Positions 23,524-32,663 of a stretch of DNA of 64,000 bases are shown here, piece by piece. Every line of letters starts with the position of its first letter. Position 1 is the stretch's first letter. Source of the stretch: Terriglobia bacterium (lineage in GTDB: Bacteria; Acidobacteriota; Terriglobia; Terriglobales; Acidobacteriaceae); assembly GCA_020073185.1 (NCBI GenBank), contig JAIQFT010000016.1, positions 1-64,000 of the forward strand, read 5' to 3'. The notes under the pieces were generated by a model. That model saw only the letters and a program-made list of their open reading frames with translations, was not told the origin of the DNA and ran no database searches. Position numbers and translations under genes: made by a program.

Positions 23524-24465
23524 TCAATGGCCGGAGCGGGCCCGTGCCTCTTGCGGCAACAGGCTGGCGTAGATGAACTGGGTGGCAGGGCTGGGCACGC
23601 CGCCAGCCATGCCGAAGCGGACTACGCTGCCGATGATGGCCTCCAATTCGGACGGACGCCCGTCCGCGACGTCGCGCTGCATGGAGGCGGTACCTTCCTT
23701 GGGCATGGTGTCGATAAACGCCATGGTGCGCGTGACGATGTCGTCGGCGAGGCGCACGCCACGCCGGCGCGCGACCGCCGCCACTTCCTCCATTACTTGC
23801 TGCAGTAGCGCGCGCGTAGGCGGCGACTGACGCACTTCGCCTACGTTAGCGCGTGACACAGCGCCGACCCCGCTTACCGCGGTGATGAACAGCAGTTTTT
23901 CCCACAATGCCGACTGGATGTCCGGCACCGCCTTCACGTTGACACCGGCGGCGCGAAACGCTTCCAGCAGCGCGCGGGCGTTGCCTGCCAGTTCCGAACC
24001 GTCGAGTTCCCCGAGCACGACGATCGGCTCCATGCCGCCGATCTTGATCACCCCCGGGGCGGCGATGGAGGCGATGATGCGGCACAATCCGCCCAACACG
24101 TGCTCGCGACCGAGCACCTGCACCAGGTCGTCGACGGCTTCCACGCCATTCTGCAGGGGCACGACACGCGTGTTCGGTTTCACCAGCGGGCGCATCGCTT
24201 TGGCCGCAGCGGGCACCTGCCAGGCTTTGACGCCGACGAGGACGATGTCCACCGGTCCAATGTCGGCGGGATTGTCGCTGGCCGCGGCAGGAGTGATGGT
24301 GAACTCTTCCTTCGGCGTTTGTATGCGCAGGCCCTTTTCGCGAATGGCCTGCAGATGTGCGCCACGCGCAATCAGCGATACGGGATTGCCTGCGCGCGCG
24401 AGCACGGCGCCGAAGTATCCTCCGACTCCGCCGACACCATAGACAGCGACTTTCAATTCGCTCAT
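23524..24465 (-). CDS. panE: 2-dehydropantoate 2-reductase
   Basis: 313 aa, full length. The NADPH-binding motif VAVYGVGGVGGYFGAVLARA is at the N-terminus. The ketopantoate reductase signatures are present: VVPLQNGVEAVD and the catalytic-lysine region ALWEKLLFITAVSGV. It makes pantoate for coenzyme A. The ATG overlaps the stop codon of a truncated ATPase remnant by ATGA, showing that panE was once the last gene of the ArsA-like operon now cut by the restriction island. Confidence 0.9.
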   Translation of the reverse strand: MSELKVAVYGVGGVGGYFGAVLARAGNPVSLIARGAHLQAIREKGLRIQTPKEEFTITPAAASDNPADIGPVDIVLVGVKAWQVPAAAKAMRPLVKPNTRVVPLQNGVEAVDDLVQVLGREHVLGGLCRIIASIAAPGVIKIGGMEPIVVLGELDGSELAGNARALLEAFRAAGVNVKAVPDIQSALWEKLLFITAVSGVGAVSRANVGEVRQSPPTRALLQQVMEEVAAVARRRGVRLADDIVTRTMAFIDTMPKEGTASMQRDVADGRPSELEAIIGSVVRFGMAGGVPSPATQFIYASLLPQEARARSGH

Positions 24466-24586
24466 TGGCTCATCCCGGCGACCGGTTGTGGGAAGGCTAA
24501 GTCCGCCATCGTCATCTTTAACGTCACTGTGCTGCGGACCTCATTATCAAACAAAGGGACGATGGCGCGCACGCACATTGTCGAAG
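24462..24586 (-). pseudogene. 3' remnant of an ArsA/Get3-like ATPase gene
   Basis: Translated on the minus strand, this stretch gives PLFDNEVRSTVTLK, then ADLAFPQPVAGMSQ-stop. It aligns with the end of the intact ATPase at 27060 (PLFDNEVRGTAALR, ADFAFPQPVAAGMSK-stop). A 4-nt insertion breaks the frame near its upstream end, and the match stops at about 24586, where island DNA begins. Its TGA overlaps the panE ATG. The nucleotide copies have clearly diverged, so it is a paralog remnant, not a fresh duplication. Confidence 0.8.
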
Positions 24587-25073: not shown

Positions 25074-25991
25074 ATGCGTTTCGAGACTCCACATCCGATT
25101 CCGTATCAGGGCAGCAAGCGGCTGCTGGCGCCCGCAATTCTCTCGTTCGTTCCCCCACAGCGGTTCCGACGATTGGTGGAGCCGTTTGCAGGGTCAGCGG
25201 CAATCACACTCGCGGCAGCACAGAAGAATCTTTTCCGCGAATATGTGATCGCAGACATTCTCAAGCCGCTCACTGATATCTGGCGCGCAATCCTGAACGA
25301 ACCATCAAGGTTGAGCGCAGCATACCGGGAACTGTGGGAATCGCAATTGCGCGGCGACCCGATAGACCGGTTCAATGCCATTCGCAACCAATTCAATTGC
25401 GACCACGACCCGGCAAAGTTGCTCTTCCTTCTGGCACGATGCGTCAAGAACGCCGTGCGGTTCAGCACCGCAGGCCAGTTCAATCAGTCAGCGGACAAGC
25501 GTCGGCGCGGAACCCACCCGGACACGATGGGCAAAGAGATTGAGGGTGCTCACAGGGTCCTTAGTGGCCGCTGCGAAGTTGTGTGTGGAGACTTCCGCTC
25601 TGTTTTGAGCAGCGCAACTGACACCGACCTGATCTACATGGACCCACCGTACCAAGGTACGAGTGAAGGCAGGGACAGGCGCTACATAAACGGCGTGGCG
25701 CGGAGTTCAATGGTCAAGCAGCTCGAAGACCTGACCGCACGTCGAATTGAATATCTGCTGAGCTACGACGGCCACTGTGGTGGCAAGACCTACGGCGAAG
25801 CGCTTCCAGCACACCTGAATGCGCATCGTGTCCTGTTGGAGGTCGGTCGTTCGAGTCAGGCAACGTTGAATGGGAAGGAGGATGTGACCGTCGAGTCGGT
25901 CTACTTGTCGCCGGGACTCGCAGACCAGTCGCACCCGACTCGTCCAGTGCCGCTGAAGCAGTTCGGTGCGCAAGCGGCTTTATTTTCCTGA
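25074..25991 (+). CDS. D12-class (Dam-like) N6-adenine DNA methyltransferase
   Basis: 305 aa. SAM-binding motif EPFAGSAAITLAA, N-terminal PYQGSKRLLAP and catalytic DPPYQGT are all present in D12/alpha-class order, so this is an intact N6-adenine methylase. It is tail-to-tail with the HNH nuclease gene, overlapping it by 12 nt. It would protect the host site of the restriction system; recognition sequence not deducible. Codon use is less GC-biased than in flanking genes, pointing to transfer. Confidence 0.9.
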   Translation: MRFETPHPIPYQGSKRLLAPAILSFVPPQRFRRLVEPFAGSAAITLAAAQKNLFREYVIADILKPLTDIWRAILNEPSRLSAAYRELWESQLRGDPIDRFNAIRNQFNCDHDPAKLLFLLARCVKNAVRFSTAGQFNQSADKRRRGTHPDTMGKEIEGAHRVLSGRCEVVCGDFRSVLSSATDTDLIYMDPPYQGTSEGRDRRYINGVARSSMVKQLEDLTARRIEYLLSYDGHCGGKTYGEALPAHLNAHRVLLEVGRSSQATLNGKEDVTVESVYLSPGLADQSHPTRPVPLKQFGAQAALFS

Positions 25992-26675
25992 CCTGACAAG
26001 TTCCTTGATTGCGGTTGGGAGGTCTCTACCCTCACGCTTGCACTTTTCGCGGATAGTGTCAAAAGCCTTCGCGTCGTCACCTTCCCAGACCAAGTCGATT
26101 CTGCGTATCTCCTCAAGCGCAACGTGTGTGTGCATCTGCGGATTTGCCCAGTAACAGCTTTGGCATTTCGCAATACTCTTGAGCTGCGCAAAGTTGGCGC
26201 AGTGCTCGCAAATCCATGACTTTCGCCGATTGCACGAGCCGCAAAGGACCATGTAGGAATCAGGCTTGTCTTTCAGCGACTCGCCAGCAACTTGGAATGG
26301 AACGCGATGGTCTACCTGGAGATCGTGCTTGGCGGCGCAGAGTTGGCACTTGTGACCAGCAACCGCGATGATTTCCTCCCGGTTCCGCTTCGGCAGCGCG
26401 ATGCGACCGGCCCTGGAATCGCATACGCTCTGCTTGAGGTCGAAAGAATATGCGGCGATGGACTTGCCAGACGAACTCTTCACCCGCTTCGTAATGATGG
26501 GAAAGCCGAGATCGAGCGCATCCATTCGTGCGCGGGGTGGGTGGTCGTACCCGATGTCCTTGAGTTCCTCCGTCGTGATGCTTCCGTTCTTGGCGATGCG
26601 ATCAAGCACGAGCCGCGCTCGCTTGTTCGTCACGCCTTTAATGCGCTTAAGAAACTCTGATGGAACTTTTCCCAC
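25980..26675 (-). CDS. HNH restriction endonuclease
   Basis: 231 aa. Residues ~1-75 look like a winged-helix, DNA-reading part (SITTEELKDIGYDHPPRARM). The nuclease core has the HNH layout with zinc cysteines: HKCQLCAAKHDLQVDHRVPF, VLCGSCNRRKSW, then CEHCANF and CQSCYW. Position between a C-type regulator and a methylase supports a type II restriction enzyme. It overlaps the regulator gene by 29 nt, so they are co-expressed. Target unknown. Confidence 0.85.
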   Translation of the reverse strand: MGKVPSEFLKRIKGVTNKRARLVLDRIAKNGSITTEELKDIGYDHPPRARMDALDLGFPIITKRVKSSSGKSIAAYSFDLKQSVCDSRAGRIALPKRNREEIIAVAGHKCQLCAAKHDLQVDHRVPFQVAGESLKDKPDSYMVLCGSCNRRKSWICEHCANFAQLKSIAKCQSCYWANPQMHTHVALEEIRRIDLVWEGDDAKAFDTIREKCKREGRDLPTAIKELVRSGK

Positions 26676-26901
26676 GGTGGCCGCGGCTTTCGGAAATGAG
26701 TTCTGCCGGTGACGTGCGCAGAGCGATTGCGAGATCGTTCAAGGTTTCGAGCGTCACATTGCGCTCTCCCCGCTCAATCGCACCGACGTAGGTCCTGTGC
26801 AACCCGCACCTCTCGGCCATGACTTCCTGCGACCAGCCCCGCGCACGCCTCAGCGCACGCAGATTATGAGCTAGGATGGCATTCGGATGCGGTTGCGGCA
26901 T
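26647..26901 (-). CDS. XRE-family controller (C) protein
   Basis: About 84 aa from ATG 26901; a TTG at 26919 is an alternative and neither has a binding site. One HTH_XRE domain: LRALRRARGWSQEVMAERCG, then HRTYVGAIERGERNVTLETL, typical of restriction-modification controller proteins. It is first in the C-nuclease transcript and probably delays nuclease expression by binding the shared elements at 25041-25070 and 26927-26954. Confidence 0.85.
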   Translation of the reverse strand: MPQPHPNAILAHNLRALRRARGWSQEVMAERCGLHRTYVGAIERGERNVTLETLNDLAIALRTSPAELISESRGHRGKSSIRVS

Positions 26902-26926
26902 CGGTGCAAGTCTGTTCAAATGATGA

Positions 26927-27039: not shown

Positions 27040-27059
27040 ATCAAGGACGACTAATTCGC

Positions 27060-28064
27060 TTACTTGCTCATTCCGGCCGCGACCGGTTGCGGGAAGGCGA
27101 AGTCTGCCACCATCCTCAACGCCGCGGTGCCGCGGACTTCGTTATCGAACAGCGGCAGGACGGCGCGCACGTTGTCGAAGTCGCGCCAGATTTCCGCCAT
27201 GTAGTTGTCCTGCATGGCCACGCGGTTGCGCACGAACTCGGGCGAGTCGGAGCGCACCTGGGCCTTGTCGATCAGCATGTTGACGATGACGCCGCCGACG
27301 GGAATGCCGAAATCGTGGAACCAGTTGATGAAGCGCTTGATCACCGCGATGGGCAGCGCCTCCGGCAAGGTCACGAAGAAGAACGCGGTGAGCGCTGGGT
27401 CGGTAAGCAGGTCGCGGGCGTGCGCGATGCGCTCGCGGAAGCTGAGCAGGTAATCCATCAGCGGGTCGGCTTCCTTCTTTTTGGTGAAAGAGAACAGGTC
27501 GCGCAGCGACTGCGCTTCCTCGCGCGACTTCACCATCTTGTTCACCCACAGCGAATACACCTTGCTCATGCCGAGCAGGCGGCGGGCGTTAGCGGTGGGC
27601 GCGGTATCGAAGACGTAGGCGTCGTACTCGTTCTTGAACATCAGGTCCACCATGTTCTCGAACATCGCCGACTCCTCGAAGGCCGGATTCATGGTGGCGC
27701 TCTCCACGAACATGTCGGCCTGGGTGGAAATCTCGGCGAACTTCAGGAACCAGCGGATCTTGGTCTTGATGTCCTGCTTGGAGCGCTCGATGGTTTCCTT
27801 GGTGTCAATCTCGTAGGCCCAGAGGTTGGGAACGTTGTTCACCGGAGTGGCCTTGCCGTAGACGTCCTGGTCGAGCAGGCCGCTGAGCGAGTGCACCGGG
27901 TTGGTGGAGGCGAGCATGACGCGCTTGCCCTGCGACGCCAGATGAAGCGCCGTCACGCCGGCCATGACGGTCTTGCCCACGCCGCCCTTGCCGCCGAAGA
28001 AGGAGAACTTCAACTGCGGGTGGTCGGTCATGTAATCGGTGAGTGAGTGATTAATCCCCGGCAT
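27060..28064 (-). CDS. ArsA/Get3-like ATPase with Asp-to-Asn switch residue
   Basis: 334 aa, single ATPase domain. The deviant Walker A is FFGGKGGVGKT. Switch I, which in Get3/ArsA reads DP-x-H-[SN], is STNPVHSLS here, so the catalytic Asp is Asn55. In yeast Get3 the same change (D57N) is used to block hydrolysis, so this copy is predicted to bind but barely hydrolyse ATP. ATG 28064 with GGGAGG upstream, 3 nt after its paralog. The two probably form a heterodimer. Real arsenite transport is unlikely: no metal-site Cys and no ArsB nearby. Confidence 0.85.
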   Translation of the reverse strand: MPGINHSLTDYMTDHPQLKFSFFGGKGGVGKTVMAGVTALHLASQGKRVMLASTNPVHSLSGLLDQDVYGKATPVNNVPNLWAYEIDTKETIERSKQDIKTKIRWFLKFAEISTQADMFVESATMNPAFEESAMFENMVDLMFKNEYDAYVFDTAPTANARRLLGMSKVYSLWVNKMVKSREEAQSLRDLFSFTKKKEADPLMDYLLSFRERIAHARDLLTDPALTAFFFVTLPEALPIAVIKRFINWFHDFGIPVGGVIVNMLIDKAQVRSDSPEFVRNRVAMQDNYMAEIWRDFDNVRAVLPLFDNEVRGTAALRMVADFAFPQPVAAGMSK

Positions 28065-28067
28065 GGC

Positions 28068-29057
28068 TCAGTGCCTCCCGTTTCCGTTGCCGTACATGAT
28101 ATCGGCAAGCTTCTCGATCATCTTCAGGCCGGTGACGTCGCGCTCCAGCTCGGGAACGCGGCTGACCACCTGCTTGCCGAAGGTCAGATCAATTTCTTCC
28201 AGGTAGTGTCCCTGCATCTTGAGGCGGTTCTGGAGGTAGGGCGGTATGTCCTTGCCCGCCAACTCGGCCGGCAGCACGCGATTGACGACGTAGCCGGCAA
28301 TAGGCACGTCGAACTTGGCGAACAACTGCGCCGCCTTTTGGGTGTCGAGAATGATCATCTCCTCCGGCACCACGACGAAGAAGAACGCGGTCTTGTCCCG
28401 GTCGGTCAAAATTCCCGACGACTGGTTGATGCGGTTCTTGATGTACAGCAACTCGTTCAGAACCAGGTCTTCTTCGGTCGTCTTCTGCCGCTTGATGCGC
28501 GCCACCATCACTTCGTGCTGACGCATTTCCTCGCGCAGCTTGGTGATGCGGTTGATCCACTCGTCGTAGACCTTGGCCATGGAGAGGTAGTAGAGGGCGT
28601 GGCCGAGCGGAACCAAGTCGTAGATGTAGTAGTCGTAGTCGCCGCCGACGACGATGTCGACCACGGCATCGAAGATGGCCGACTCCTCCATCGCGGGCTC
28701 GGCCGAGGCCGCCTGGATGTAGTGCTCAATCTCCTCCGGCACCTCCGCCAGGCCGTACATGTCGAGGATCTTCTTGCGGATTTCGTTCTGGTAATTCTTG
28801 ATGTGGCTGTCGGCGTCAATCTCCTGGGCGTAGAGGTTGTCCATGATCTTGACCGCGCCCTTGCCAAAGATGTCCTTCTGGAAAATGTCGCTGAGCGAGG
28901 CTTGCGGGTCCACGGAGAAGACCAGGACCTTGTGTCCCTGCTGCGCCAGCCAGAAGGCGGTGGCGGCGGAGAAGGTGGTTTTACCCAAGCCTCCCTTGCC
29001 GCCGAACATGATGTAACGCCGTTCTTTGTTAGCTTCGAAAGTTTCGCGGAATGACAT
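28068..29057 (-). CDS. ArsA/Get3-like ATPase with intact switch residue
   Basis: 329 aa. Walker A is FGGKGGLGKTT, and switch I is SVDPQASLSD, so Asp50 is kept. Otherwise it shares the architecture of the next gene (MEESAIFDAVVDIVV here, FEESAMFENMVDLMF there). ATG 29057 follows AAAGGA. As the hydrolysing partner of the Asn-bearing paralog it may drive a membrane-protein targeting or assembly cycle for the two small proteins encoded upstream (inference). I know no named pathway for this four-gene set. Confidence 0.85.
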   Translation of the reverse strand: MSFRETFEANKERRYIMFGGKGGLGKTTFSAATAFWLAQQGHKVLVFSVDPQASLSDIFQKDIFGKGAVKIMDNLYAQEIDADSHIKNYQNEIRKKILDMYGLAEVPEEIEHYIQAASAEPAMEESAIFDAVVDIVVGGDYDYYIYDLVPLGHALYYLSMAKVYDEWINRITKLREEMRQHEVMVARIKRQKTTEEDLVLNELLYIKNRINQSSGILTDRDKTAFFFVVVPEEMIILDTQKAAQLFAKFDVPIAGYVVNRVLPAELAGKDIPPYLQNRLKMQGHYLEEIDLTFGKQVVSRVPELERDVTGLKMIEKLADIMYGNGNGRH

Positions 29058-29084
29058 GAGTGAATCCTTTATGAGTGCGTACGA

Positions 29085-29172
29085 ATTGCGGTTGTCGGTT
29101 GTCGGTCAGCGGTTATCGGTAAGCAAAACCCGGTCATTAACCGTAAACCGACGACCGAAGACCGAGAACCTG
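29085..29172. repeat. low-complexity intergenic string
   Basis: A run of near-repeats built from GTTGTCGGT, GTCAGCGG, then ACCGTAAACCGACGACCG and AAGACCGAGAACC, partly self-complementary. It is non-coding and lies between the small protein and ATPase genes. Similar strings occur elsewhere in the window. Confidence 0.5.
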
Positions 29173-29175
29173 CCT

Positions 29176-29451
29176 TTAAAACATGGCGTCGGAAACGTCC
29201 TTCTCCCGCAGCATGCGGCGCTTCCAGGTGGCGATGTTGGGCACCACGTAAGGGAGCAGGCGCAGCGAGTAATACGGCGGCAGGATGGGAACGCCGATCA
29301 GGTCGCCCATGGTGATCAGGATGAACAGGTGCTCCATGCTGGCGCGGGTACGCATGGCGTAGCGCGACATGTCATGAGCGCTCATCCCGTAGGCGATCTC
29401 CTTGATCTTGCTGAACAAGCCCTGTTTTTCGTCTTTCGGTTCGTCTGCCAT
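29176..29451 (-). CDS. small ArsA-operon protein A (91 aa)
   Basis: ATG 29451 follows GAGGAGA. An N-terminal charged helix (KQGLFSKIKEIAYGMSAHDM) leads to a hydrophobic stretch and a Pro-rich turn: LITMGDLIGVPILPPYYS, LRLLPYVVPNIATWKRRM, then LREKDVSD. The central half is nearly identical to that of the next small protein. It probably associates with the membrane through the hydrophobic region. Family not recognised. It is encoded just upstream of the two ATPases and is a likely client or partner of them. Confidence 0.75.
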   Translation of the reverse strand: MADEPKDEKQGLFSKIKEIAYGMSAHDMSRYAMRTRASMEHLFILITMGDLIGVPILPPYYSLRLLPYVVPNIATWKRRMLREKDVSDAMF

Positions 29452-29459
29452 AAGTCTCC

Positions 29460-29570
29460 TCAATTGCGAAACTGCGGAATTGCCGAATTGCGGAACTGAA
29501 ACGCCAAGTTGCAAATTCGTTATTGGGCTTTGAATTCCGCAATTCCGCAGTTGTGCAATTCCGCAATCCT
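29460..29570. repeat. low-complexity intergenic string with inverted copies
   Basis: Units such as GCGGAATTGCCGAATTGCGG, then further on CCGCAATTCCGCAGTT and GCAATTCCGCAATCC, mirror one another. It is non-coding and separates the two small-protein genes. The same unit type (TTCCGCAGTTCC) recurs near 56780. Confidence 0.5.
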
Positions 29571-29864
29571 TCAAACTCCGTGCAGGTGAAACTCTTCCTT
29601 ATCCGACAAATCGCGCTCCCGCATGACGCGACGCTTCCACTTCTCGATGGCCGGGACGACGTAGGGGAGCAGGCGCAGCGAGTACAAGGGCGGCAGCACG
29701 GGGACGCCGATCATGTCGCCGAAGGTGATCAGCATGAACGCCGACTCGAGCTCGCCGCGCATCTCCAGCGCCTGGCGCTCGAACTCATAGGCGCAAAAGC
29801 CGTGGATGAACTCGCGGATCTTGCGCCATGCGTCACCTGACACTGCCGTTGCCCCCATGTTCAT
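29571..29864 (-). CDS. small ArsA-operon protein B (97 aa)
   Basis: A paralog of protein A. The matching core is LITFGDMIGVPVLPPLYS, LRLLPYVVPAIEKWKRRV, then MRERDLSD, after an N-terminal helix (WRKIREFIHGFCAYEFERQA). ATG 29864 or ATG 29858 may be used; neither has a strong binding site. It is the first gene of the minus-strand set leading to the two ATPases. Strong conservation between A and B, while their N-termini differ, suggests two versions of one role, one for each ATPase. Confidence 0.72.
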   Translation of the reverse strand: MNMGATAVSGDAWRKIREFIHGFCAYEFERQALEMRGELESAFMLITFGDMIGVPVLPPLYSLRLLPYVVPAIEKWKRRVMRERDLSDKEEFHLHGV

Positions 29865-29916
29865 CCGTCGCAGCCTGACCGCGCCGCGCTACAATCCTAG
29901 TTCCCTGGCGCTTGGC

Positions 29917-30540
29917 ATGTCGCTCAATCTCGCTCTGTTCATCGTCGTCGTCATCTTCGTGGTCGGCTGGTTCGCTGCCGGCACGCACTACAACGTCCGC
30001 AAGGGCGAAGCCGCGCTGACCTGGCTGCAGCAGGGCCTGCCGCTGATCGGCGGCAAGACCACGCTGCGCTGGCTCGGCTCCTCCGTCGTCGAGCTCAAAA
30101 TCCACCCGGCGAAAGCGCCCTTCCGCGAGGCCGCGGTGCTGGTGGTGCTCGAACCGCGCGACGTCGCGCTGCTCTGGTGGATCGCCCGGCTGCGCGGCCG
30201 CCGCGACCTGCTGGTTTTCCGCGCGACACTGCAGCAGCGCCCGCGAATCGAAATCGAGGCCCACGACCCGAAATCGTGGACCCTCGGAACGCCCGGGAAG
30301 CCCGAGGGCTGGGAAAGTGTCACCGCTCCCGCGCCGCTCGTTGCCCTAGCTCCCCGGCTCCAGCGCAGCGCTGCCGACGCGCTTGCGGCGGCCACGTTGG
30401 AGGGCTGCCGGCTGGTCCGACTCACCGTCCGCGCCACCGCACCTCACCTCGAAGCGCAGTGGCGGCTCGATCAACTCCGCAAGCACGAGCCGCGCGAGGT
30501 GTTCGAAGCCATACGCAGCATCAGCTCCCTGCTTTCGTAG
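29917..30540 (+). CDS. membrane-anchored hypothetical protein
   Basis: 207 aa from ATG 29917, chosen because the protein then opens with a membrane anchor (SLNLALFIVVVIFVVGWFAA) and does not overlap the divergent small gene; ATG 29806 or 29857 are possible but would overlap it. The rest is soluble and basic, with alternating strands and helices (GGKTTLRWLGSSVVELKI, EAAVLVVLEPRDVALLWW). No family recognised. Codon usage matches the neighbours. Unclear whether it relates to the ATPase operon, from which it diverges. Confidence 0.6.
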   Translation: MSLNLALFIVVVIFVVGWFAAGTHYNVRKGEAALTWLQQGLPLIGGKTTLRWLGSSVVELKIHPAKAPFREAAVLVVLEPRDVALLWWIARLRGRRDLLVFRATLQQRPRIEIEAHDPKSWTLGTPGKPEGWESVTAPAPLVALAPRLQRSAADALAAATLEGCRLVRLTVRATAPHLEAQWRLDQLRKHEPREVFEAIRSISSLLS

Positions 30541-30581: not shown

Positions 30582-32663
30582 TTAGTCGTGCGCCGACACC
30601 AGCTCGCGCTCGCGGTCGCGAGTCGGAGTGGGCGTGGCGCCTTTCACGTCCAGCTTCCGCCAGGCCTTGAACGCGTCCCAGGCGATCAGGATGGCCGCAA
30701 TGAACAGCAGGCCGGCCACGATCAGCATCGCAATCGCGCCGAAGCTGTTAATCGGCTGCGCTGCAATCTTGGGATTGGACAGGATGCTGGCGTACAAGTT
30801 ATATGCGGTGACCAGGATCGCCGCCATGGTGGTGACGTACATGAAGATCATCGGCCAGAAGGCATAGCGCGGACTGCGTCCGATGGACTTCAACCACAGG
30901 CTGACGATCAGCAGGCTCAGCGCCGCCATCAACTGGTTGGATGCGCCGAACAACTGCCAGAGGTAAATCCAGGTGCCGCTGAGCACGAGCACGAGCGCCA
31001 GACCCATGGAGACGATGGCAGAGATGTGCGCGTTCTTGAACCCAGCCCAGGTATCGCCCAGCCACTCGCCCAAAGTGACGCGCATGACGCGGAAGACCAG
31101 TTGCACCATGGTGAGCACGATGACAACGAATACGCCGAAGCCCAGGGCGGTACCGTAGGCCGGGGCAATGGCGCCGAAGGTCACCATCCCGAGCAGTTTG
31201 CCTACACCCGCCGCGAAGGCTCCCGCACCTGCGCCGCCGGCGATGGAAACCGCCACCAGCGAGAGGAGTGCGAGCGCGTTCTCGGAGAACATGCCGCCGC
31301 CGCCGACCGGAAGCGCGTCGGTTTCATATTCCAACTGCCGCGCCGTGCCGATGGAGCCCACCAGCGCGTGCCAGCCCGAGATGGCGCCGCAGGCGATGGT
31401 CACGAACAGCATTGGCCAGATCGGCTGGATGGCGGGCAGCGCCTGCAGGATGTTGCCGGCCGCGTCCTTGGCCTGGCTCATCGGCATCAAGGTGGAGAAC
31501 ACCTTGGTCTGGAAGGTGACCGCCTTGATCATCTCGGGATTGCCGAACAGCGCGCGCACACCGCCGACAATGGCGCCGAGCGCGGATAGTCCGATGGTAA
31601 TGAACGTCACCCAGAACCCAATATAGTTCGTCGGCTGAGCGAATCGCCAGATGGGCAGCACCGTCCCGAGATAGGAGAACAGGAACACCATCAGGCACCA
31701 GAAGACGAACGAGGGCATCATCTTGATGGCGCCGCTCTTGTCCACGTACTTGGGAACAATCTTGCCGTCGGCAGTGATGACGGTGGTCGCCAGCCGCGGG
31801 TCGGCCTTGGTCGGGTCCACCACCGTGTACATGGGTTCGCCACCGGTGATCCGGTTCAGCCCGTTGCCAACCTTCTCGACGACGGAATTCACCGGGCCGC
31901 CGAACACGATGGTGGCCGCCGGCTTGCCATCGGGCGTGACGCCTTTCGCGCTGCTGATTCCCTTTGCGCCCAGCGCCATGCCGCCCAGAGTGAGCGCCAC
32001 GGCGATGAAGGTCACCAAGATCAGGTCCATCTTCCACTTATAGAGCATCTGCCCCATCAGCAGGCCCATGATGGCGAGCATCAAGATGCCGAACGGGACG
32101 TCGGCGCGCGGATCGAAAATGCCGGCCATGATGCCGACGAATGCGCCCGCGAGCAGCAACAGGTAGAAGAAGATGAAGACGAACAGGATGATGCGGGCGC
32201 GCGGCGAGATCAGCCGGTGGGCAATGGCGGACAGCGAATTGCCGTCGTTGCGGACGGCCACCACGATGGCCGAGTAGTCGCTCGCCCAGCCCAGGAACGA
32301 GACACCCAGCGTCAGCCACAGCAGGGCCGGCATCCAGCCCCACAGCGTGGCCGCGGCAATCGGGCCGACGATGGGGCCCGCCGCCGCGATGGACTTGAAG
32401 TGATACCCATACAGCACGTTGCGGCTGGTGGGCATAAAGTCCACCCCGTCCATGTACATGCGCGCCGGCGTCGCCTTCTTGTCATCGGGACGGATGACTT
32501 CGGCATCAATGCGCCGGGCGTAGCGGGTGTAGGCGAGCCAGATCATCACCGCGCCCAGAACCGCCACTACGGGCGCGGACATGGGCGTCTTGGTTACCGC
32601 GAATCCGCCTGCCACCAGAACGGGAATCAGGACTAGTGCGAGGATCGTGAGCCGGATCTTCAT
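30582..32663 (-). CDS. cstA: CstA carbon-starvation transporter
   Basis: 693 aa, normal length for CstA, with many transmembrane helices. N-terminal CstA core: RPDDKKATPARMYMDGVDFM, then YGYHFKSIAAAGPIVGPIAA. The C-terminal CstA half holds the QLFGASNQLMAALSLLIVS motif. CstA-type proteins import pyruvate or peptides under carbon limitation. ATG 32663 follows GGAGG. Single gene. Confidence 0.93.
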   Translation of the reverse strand: MKIRLTILALVLIPVLVAGGFAVTKTPMSAPVVAVLGAVMIWLAYTRYARRIDAEVIRPDDKKATPARMYMDGVDFMPTSRNVLYGYHFKSIAAAGPIVGPIAAATLWGWMPALLWLTLGVSFLGWASDYSAIVVAVRNDGNSLSAIAHRLISPRARIILFVFIFFYLLLLAGAFVGIMAGIFDPRADVPFGILMLAIMGLLMGQMLYKWKMDLILVTFIAVALTLGGMALGAKGISSAKGVTPDGKPAATIVFGGPVNSVVEKVGNGLNRITGGEPMYTVVDPTKADPRLATTVITADGKIVPKYVDKSGAIKMMPSFVFWCLMVFLFSYLGTVLPIWRFAQPTNYIGFWVTFITIGLSALGAIVGGVRALFGNPEMIKAVTFQTKVFSTLMPMSQAKDAAGNILQALPAIQPIWPMLFVTIACGAISGWHALVGSIGTARQLEYETDALPVGGGGMFSENALALLSLVAVSIAGGAGAGAFAAGVGKLLGMVTFGAIAPAYGTALGFGVFVVIVLTMVQLVFRVMRVTLGEWLGDTWAGFKNAHISAIVSMGLALVLVLSGTWIYLWQLFGASNQLMAALSLLIVSLWLKSIGRSPRYAFWPMIFMYVTTMAAILVTAYNLYASILSNPKIAAQPINSFGAIAMLIVAGLLFIAAILIAWDAFKAWRKLDVKGATPTPTRDRERELVSAHD

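Follow-up and report, generated by a model that had tools for sequence, protein, structure and literature searches.

What can an ATPase of the Get3/ArsA kind do once its catalytic aspartate is naturally an asparagine, and why should it stand beside a second copy that has kept the aspartate? The question is raised by two adjacent genes in the genome of a Terriglobia bacterium, within a stretch of 64,000 nucleotides (contig JAIQFT010000016.1 of assembly GCA_020073185.1, positions 1 to 64,000), here called the window. The genes lie 3 bases apart on the minus strand, and each encodes a single ATPase domain. The first to be transcribed, D (28068..29057, 329 residues), carries the switch I motif SVDPQASLSD, and the second, N (27060..28064, 334 residues), carries STNPVHSLSG, in which Asn replaces the catalytic Asp. 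We find that this division is fixed among the relatives read, that it is answered by a reverse change in D, and that two small cory-like proteins and cstA, the gene of a CstA-family transporter, form a larger unit together with the pair. The outline of the system was known before; what the present analysis adds is the strict D/N division within the pair.

A fixed and reciprocal division of motifs

The two proteins are members of the Get3/TRC40/ArsA ATPase superfamily, according to their profile scores (221 and 249 bits for Pfam PF02374, cut-off 24.3; 215 and 234 bits for NCBIfam TIGR00345, cut-off 135) and to the deviant Walker A sequence GKGGxGK(T/S), which reads GKGGLGKTT in D and GKGGVGKTV in N. 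Over 294 residues the two share 33% identity. Using phmmer, we aligned the Asn of STNP in N with the Asp column of STDP in archaeal Get3 structures, so that the coordinates, the motifs and the natural Asp-to-Asn change reported in the original prediction are confirmed. An AlphaFold2 model of N (mean predicted local distance difference test, pLDDT, 84.9) was best aligned by VIA-align to Get3, with a Z of 29.1 and a root-mean-square deviation of 3.5 over 295 aligned residues for the ADP-AlF4 form 3zq6, and a Z of 28.2 for 9ns5, the ATP-bound Get3 D57N; matches within about 1 Z of each other count as tied.

The match to PF02374 and the partial matches to ArsA models would also be expected of a split ArsA, that is, of the pump ATPase for arsenite or another oxyanion. 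We regard this as very improbable. The ArsA equivalog scores of the pair, 111 and 100 bits, are far under the cut-off of 650, and by the test for a fused two-domain protein of about 600 residues with three conserved Cys the window pair is not an ArsA arsenite pump. E. coli ArsA binds arsenite through a triad of cysteines, and since both window ATPases contain no cysteine at all, this triad is absent. Moreover, the neighbouring gene is cstA, and no arsenic gene was found among the ten window proteins scanned.

Relatives were collected by scanning GTDB species genomes with N as the query, which yielded 132; we retained the best 80, with 68-97% identity. Their record titles are mostly Chloroflexi, the others being Terriglobia/Acidobacteria, Deltaproteobacteria, Rokubacteria, Gemmatimonadetes, Bacteroidetes, Spirochaetes and Actinobacteria, labels that can be wrong for metagenome-assembled genomes. 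In all of these best 80 loci N and D lie on the same strand at most 1.3 kb apart, with a spacing of no more than 150 bp in 76 and a wider one in L077, L078, L092 and L103. Counting distinct sequences with a readable switch I, the window's own included, we found Asn in 113/113 N and Asp in 106/106 D sequences; we omitted genes that a contig or locus boundary truncates (N of L046 and L201; D of L086, L127, L140, L170, L183, L185 and L268). One apparent exception to the first motif pattern, L187, reads STNPVHSIS by eye and thus has Asn too. The P-loop and the signature Lys are present in every one of the 113 and 106 sequences.

The division is reciprocal: switch I diverges in N, and switch II diverges in D. 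N keeps DTAPT and has DTAPTANARR as its switch II in 108 of 113 sequences, DTAAVANAVR in 4 and an unread motif in 1, and D has DLVPLGHALY in 102 of 106 and DMPPFGHGVR in 4. The four variant pairs form a deeper Chloroflexi branch, with N 44-51% identical to that of the window, and keep the D/N split in 4/4. The same was found in 19 loci of the phylum of L114 (titled Deltaproteobacterium), with Asn in 19/19 N and Asp in 18/18 readable D, one of these loci (L253) being from the genome of L114 and thus already among the 113, and in three actinobacterial loci (L243-L245; 3/3). All of these loci likewise retain the signature Lys; a single N of the L114 phylum, in L271, has Ser at the P-loop Thr. Across 128 loci, some genomes being counted twice, the Asn codon is AAC in 83 and AAT in 45; since the codon varies while the residue is constant, it is the residue itself that is conserved and not merely the DNA. 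Chance, sequencing error and decay of the N gene are ruled out by the intact gene, the variable codon and the constant residue.

The survey of homologous pairs that had been proposed for the D/N split thus found it fixed, and no separate adjacent pair read had Asp in both copies. The fused two-domain ArsA proteins (L158, L238, L239) do have Asp in both halves, so the split marks the pair and not the whole family. As a separate observation, the source genome of the window encodes on another contig (C61, L003) a two-domain ArsA-like protein that is a second lopsided case among Get3/ArsA proteins: its first half has STDPAHSLAD and DTAPSGHTLR, and its second half STGPSHSLSG and DSAATGHL, with the catalytic Asp changed to Gly.

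Maximum-likelihood analysis of 81 ATPase domains placed the N rows (21), the D rows (21) and N+D together in one clade each (Shimodaira-Hasegawa-like approximate likelihood ratio test 99, 100 and 99, respectively), and N and D are sister clades with mirrored subclades inside. The tree was built by a quick search with no bootstrap; its outgroup consists of five rows under the provisional label 'GET3d_like', and the BagA row has a branch of 5.24 that makes its placement meaningless. This topology fits a single duplication, of which D and N would be the products, one Asp-to-Asn change and joint inheritance afterwards. Mirror correlations over 50 loci (N-D 0.84, N-CstA 0.82, D-CstA 0.84) are such as would be expected of any co-inherited neighbours. 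The single ATPases found next to cory-like proteins have Asp and D[TS]AP[TS]GHT in 32/32 loci (L207-L235, L237, L249 and L250), L217 and L218 being the same in sequence; this count excludes L236, L251 and L252, where no cory protein was found, and the two-domain proteins of L238 and L239.

Adjacency might simply be left over from the duplication, with a D/D homodimer working as the ATPase and an N/N homodimer as an ATP sensor or scaffold. Homodimers were suggested by Castillo & Saier for the single-domain ArsA homologues linked to CstA, according to the accessible part of their paper (PMC2963123), and the relatives with one ATPase would have to act as homodimers or monomers. The sequences as such would be compatible with two homodimers, a point that weighs against the heterodimer favoured below. 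Nevertheless, we think two homodimers improbable: N and D occur together in 80/80 of the best loci, their motif losses are reciprocal and their subclades are mirrored, and known relatives with unlike halves join these halves, either by fusion as in ArsA or as in BagA/BagB.

BagA/BagB is an asymmetric Get3-type precedent for the window pair. Crystals of the Mycobacterium tuberculosis proteins (Rv3679/Rv3680; PDB 6bs3-6bs5) combine two distinct chains, both Get3-like, and by the title of the entry BagAB is a heterodimer. Two pairs of BagAB relatives, with columns matched by eye, resemble the window in having adjacent genes and divided motifs; however, the residues lost are different, as in BagA relatives the Asp column is occupied by Glu (VEVENRQ, VEVEGRQ), whereas BagB relatives keep Asp and have lost the signature Lys (GSGGVGKT, GAGGVGKT). 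With the BagA and BagB models (NF053622, NF053621) the window pair reaches just 35-52 bits against cut-offs of 400 and 521, scores that do not place it in either family. The claim that one working site in an asymmetric dimer is a new regulatory design in this family was therefore too strong, in view of the divided motifs of BagA/BagB and of the Asp-to-Asn change, which appears in the accessible text of Castillo & Saier (2010), where the Asp of the SXD motif of single-domain ArsA homologues 'can be substituted only by N' (PMC2963123).

Linkage of the pair to CstA and small cory-like proteins

The original prediction described the Asp/Asn split correctly and overlooked the reverse split in switch II, two small-protein genes and the adjoining cstA. 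This context of CstA and small proteins is a better clue to function than the Asp/Asn split, and the earlier interpretation as a whole is partly supported. The gene before D in the direction of transcription is c2 (29176..29451, minus strand, 91 residues), a small cory-like protein that has a single long hydrophobic stretch and the motif GDLIGVPILPPYYSLRLLPY; before it stands its paralogue c1 (29571..29864, minus strand, 97 residues, 49% identical to c2) and, further upstream, cstA (30582..32663, minus strand, 693 residues). The cstA product scores 319 bits with PF02554 (cut-off 27) and 116 bits with NF011590, which is under the equivalog cut-off of 1188 set for E. coli CstA.

In 50 of the 80 loci the sequence upstream contains cstA on the strand of the pair, and 3 more loci have it at another position; 17 offer less than 2 kb of sequence before the cluster begins. 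Clustering of neighbours was dominated by antisense frames (the largest cluster held 1182 frames in 80 loci) and was used just to spot cstA, not for these counts. A screen of 400 genomes from the L101 phylum (titled Chloroflexi) showed the pair in 38, CstA in 39 and both in 36; a Fisher test on this co-occurrence is descriptive only, as it treats related genomes as independent. One of the three genomes where CstA was found and the pair was not, G592, shows at a contig end (L240) cstA together with two small proteins and the beginning of D.

This arrangement agrees with the literature. In the accessible part of their paper, Castillo & Saier (2010) describe 26 cases of ArsA homologues beside CstA, 24 of them with CstX, a protein of about 90 residues with one transmembrane stretch, and propose that ArsA energizes CstA with CstX as a linker (PMC2963123). 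The window pair, consisting of single-domain proteins of about 330 residues beside cstA and a protein of about 90 residues, fits the CstA-linked ArsA branch that makes up their clusters 14-18, and, as in the window, their cluster 15 (Pyrobaculum arsenaticum, Symbiobacterium thermophilum) includes adjacent ATPase pairs (PMC2963123). Unlike here, the accessible text does not link these pairs to the Asp/Asn remark and reports no split in switch II (PMC2963123). In a literature search that had most subscription journals outside it, CstX together with CstA and ArsA was found just in PMC2963123, and this search returned no mention of 'cory-CC', no paper tying a D/N split to paired ATPases and no experiment on the proposed energization of CstA by ArsA.

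A comparable gene order occurs with a single ATPase. In the phylum of L142 (titled Actinobacteria), the 'cory-CC-star' model NF041419 matched in 22 of 246 genomes, 16 of them above its cut-off, and at 15 loci of this kind the small protein is followed by an ATPase in 15/15 and preceded by cstA in 14/15. These loci share with the window the order cstA - small protein - ATPase and a weak relationship of the small proteins; they differ in having one canonical ATPase and a small protein that ends in Cys-Cys. The window proteins score 33 (c2) and 35 bits (c1) with NF041419 against an equivalog cut-off of 80 and thus fall outside this family, and they end in ...DAMF (c2) and ...HLHGV (c1), with no Cys-Cys. 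A C-terminal Cys-Cys is present in 15/15 loci of genuine NF041419 members vs 0/171 rows of the window type. Aligning 26 small proteins, most of them c2, shows a core, GDxxGxPxLPPxYSLRxLPY, whose specified residues never vary. By their size, position and partner genes, c1 and c2 are probably proteins of the CstX type.

Further observations concern the small proteins and the DNA around them. The listed open reading frame of c2 extends upstream to 29574, and the ATG at 29451 is preceded by an AGGAG-like site; the AlphaFold2 model of c2 has two long helices but, with a pLDDT of 57, is too poor to use. A third small cory-like protein follows the N gene in 14 of the 80 loci (L093, L095, L097-L102, L104, L106, L108, L113, L115 and L116). 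Both gaps flanking c2 (29452-29570 and 29058-29175) contain a short repeated, partly palindromic sequence (TTGCGGAATTGC; CGGTTTACGGTTAATGACCG) that by eye looks like small intergenic repeats. Another ArsA paired with small proteins was seen in L158 (5617-8422), a haloarchaeal plasmid ars operon with arsD, ArsA and two small proteins annotated as 'halo-CC-star' (hcsL, hcsS). A scan for promoters gave no excess over shuffled sequences (1 found, 1.3 expected), and terminator-like sites were found 10 times vs 4.6.

Between c1 and cstA lies a gene on the opposite strand (29917..30540, plus strand, 207 residues from an inferred start within an open reading frame at 29806-30540), whose product has an N-terminal stretch resembling a transmembrane segment and matched nothing in Pfam or NCBIfam at E 0.01; nor did c1 or c2 match any Pfam family. 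Relatives of this gene occur in 48 of the 80 loci, in opposite orientation to N in 44 and between cstA and D in 30. In its size and its single transmembrane-like stretch the protein resembles CstY, described in the accessible part of PMC2963123 as a protein of about 210 residues with one transmembrane stretch in five archaea.

On the other side of the pair, downstream of N, positions 24455-24586 repeat the N gene's 3' end (27053-27180) at 76% identity. The block between the two includes a D12-type adenine methylase (25074-25991), an HNH-like gene that scores slightly under the Pfam cut-off (25980-26675) and a helix-turn-helix regulator (26647-26919), and the same duplicated end is present in a congeneric genome (L066). 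The block looks like an old, restriction-modification-like insertion that duplicated the end of the gene.

How the pair may work

What, then, might the pair do? We consider it probable, although well short of certain, that D and N form an obligate heterodimer in which D hydrolyses and N holds ATP and which energizes or gates CstA via c1 and c2. Both subunits would be expected to bind ATP and to close the dimer, because both retain the P-loop and the signature Lys. D, with its water-activating Asp, would be the more likely hydrolysing site. N, with Asn in this place, would bind ATP without turnover, leaving a held site with a structural or regulatory role. From the gene cluster and the co-occurrence we infer that the dimer serves CstA, a member of the pyruvate/peptide proton symporter family, through the two hydrophobic cory/CstX-like proteins, much as ArsA acts with ArsB; ATP hydrolysis would then be coupled to transport by CstA or would gate it.

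The role proposed for N agrees with laboratory mutants of Get3 and TRC40, which share with the pair the fold, the P-loop and the signature Lys and whose mutant residue N carries naturally. In line with the original prediction, yeast Get3 D57N binds ATP and does not hydrolyse it, and the accessible text describes its closed ATP-bound form in complex with Get4/5 (PMC12506534). In the accessible part of another report, TRC40 D74N is called presumably ATPase-deficient (PMC6633398).

A second reading gives the pair a different function. A Get3-like D/N chaperone could capture a hydrophobic segment, either that of c1/c2 or one in CstA, and deliver it to the membrane, in which case the cluster would unite a chaperone with its client. 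The fold and the best structural matches are those of Get3, including the closed ADP-AlF4 and the ATP-bound D57N forms, c1 and c2 are small proteins, each with a single hydrophobic stretch, the poor c2 model has two long helices, and an Asp-to-Asn enzyme of the GET pathway traps clients, as the accessible text states (PMC6633398). However, Get3 is a homodimer with a zinc-binding CxxC that targets tail-anchored proteins, and the CxxC is absent from all 113 N and 106 D sequences, so by the zinc-site test the window pair is not a standard Get3. The insert that carries the hydrophobic helix of Get3 is also somewhat less hydrophobic here: its best 11-residue Kyte-Doolittle mean is 0.37 for N (90 sequences) and 0.17 for D (104 sequences) vs 0.59 and 0.51 in two archaeal Get3, which is a weak test. 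Furthermore, no Get1/Get2-like gene was recognised among the Pfam scans of c1, c2 and the opposite-strand protein, with no dedicated search made. We rank membrane chaperoning of the small proteins or CstA second and consider it rather unlikely, energizing or gating of CstA being our first choice.

Several observations weigh against the preferred reading of a heterodimer acting on CstA. The main doubt concerns D itself, whose switch II has changed from TAPT to LVPL (DMPPF in the deeper branch), so that its activity is not assured; Asp and GH are retained in this motif. For this reason the claim of one working site is not settled, as the Asp-bearing copy is also off-consensus (DLVPL for DTAPT). 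The linkage to cstA also has gaps. In 10 of the 80 loci there are at least 2 kb of upstream sequence and no cstA within it; in favour of the linkage, the genomes of these loci together with that of L083 encode CstA elsewhere in 11/11. Among the 400 genomes, the pair occurs without CstA in G457 and G688, on contigs of 3.0, 3.9 and 4.9 kb, and the 11-12 kb that include cstA in G544 and G625 (L241, L247) contain neither an ATPase nor a small protein. Fourteen loci of the phylum to which the window belongs (L222-L235) have a cory-like protein and a single canonical ATPase and no cstA nearby, except for a short match of 48 bits on the other strand in L227, and in G1094 (L246) a weak cory match has no ATPase within the 10 kb read. 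Thus the module of small protein and ATPase may serve carriers besides CstA; a neighbour in L228 resembles, by eye, a metal-transporting P-type ATPase. In addition, because a gene on the opposite strand separates c1 from cstA, the transcription of cstA could be separate from that of the ATPases. Finally, E. coli CstA moves pyruvate on the proton gradient, and the accessible part of the report does not contain the word ATPase (PMC7730263), so that this type of transporter as such needs no ATPase. A small partner is required there too, since pyruvate uptake by E. coli CstA depends on YbdD according to the accessible text (PMC5847655).

The heterodimer acting on CstA could also take a more specific form, which we offer tentatively and hold to be doubtful. 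N would be permanently loaded with ATP and would hold the dimer on the carrier, each ATP used in D would give a one-sided stroke relayed by the small proteins, and CstA would be driven or latched by ATP. If this is true, a locked heterodimer on a CstA symporter would be a new asymmetric design of primary-active transport outside the ABC and ArsAB kinds.

For the Get3/ArsA family, the value of the pair lies in what has been a laboratory tool until now. D57N of Get3 was made by hand, and here the same residue is naturally fixed in one half, in several phyla, beside an Asp-bearing partner. The natural D/N pair makes the role of each site of the Get3/ArsA dimer directly testable in an undamaged system, and it provides a second well-defined case for the proposal of 2010 that ATPases of the ArsA type serve CstA.

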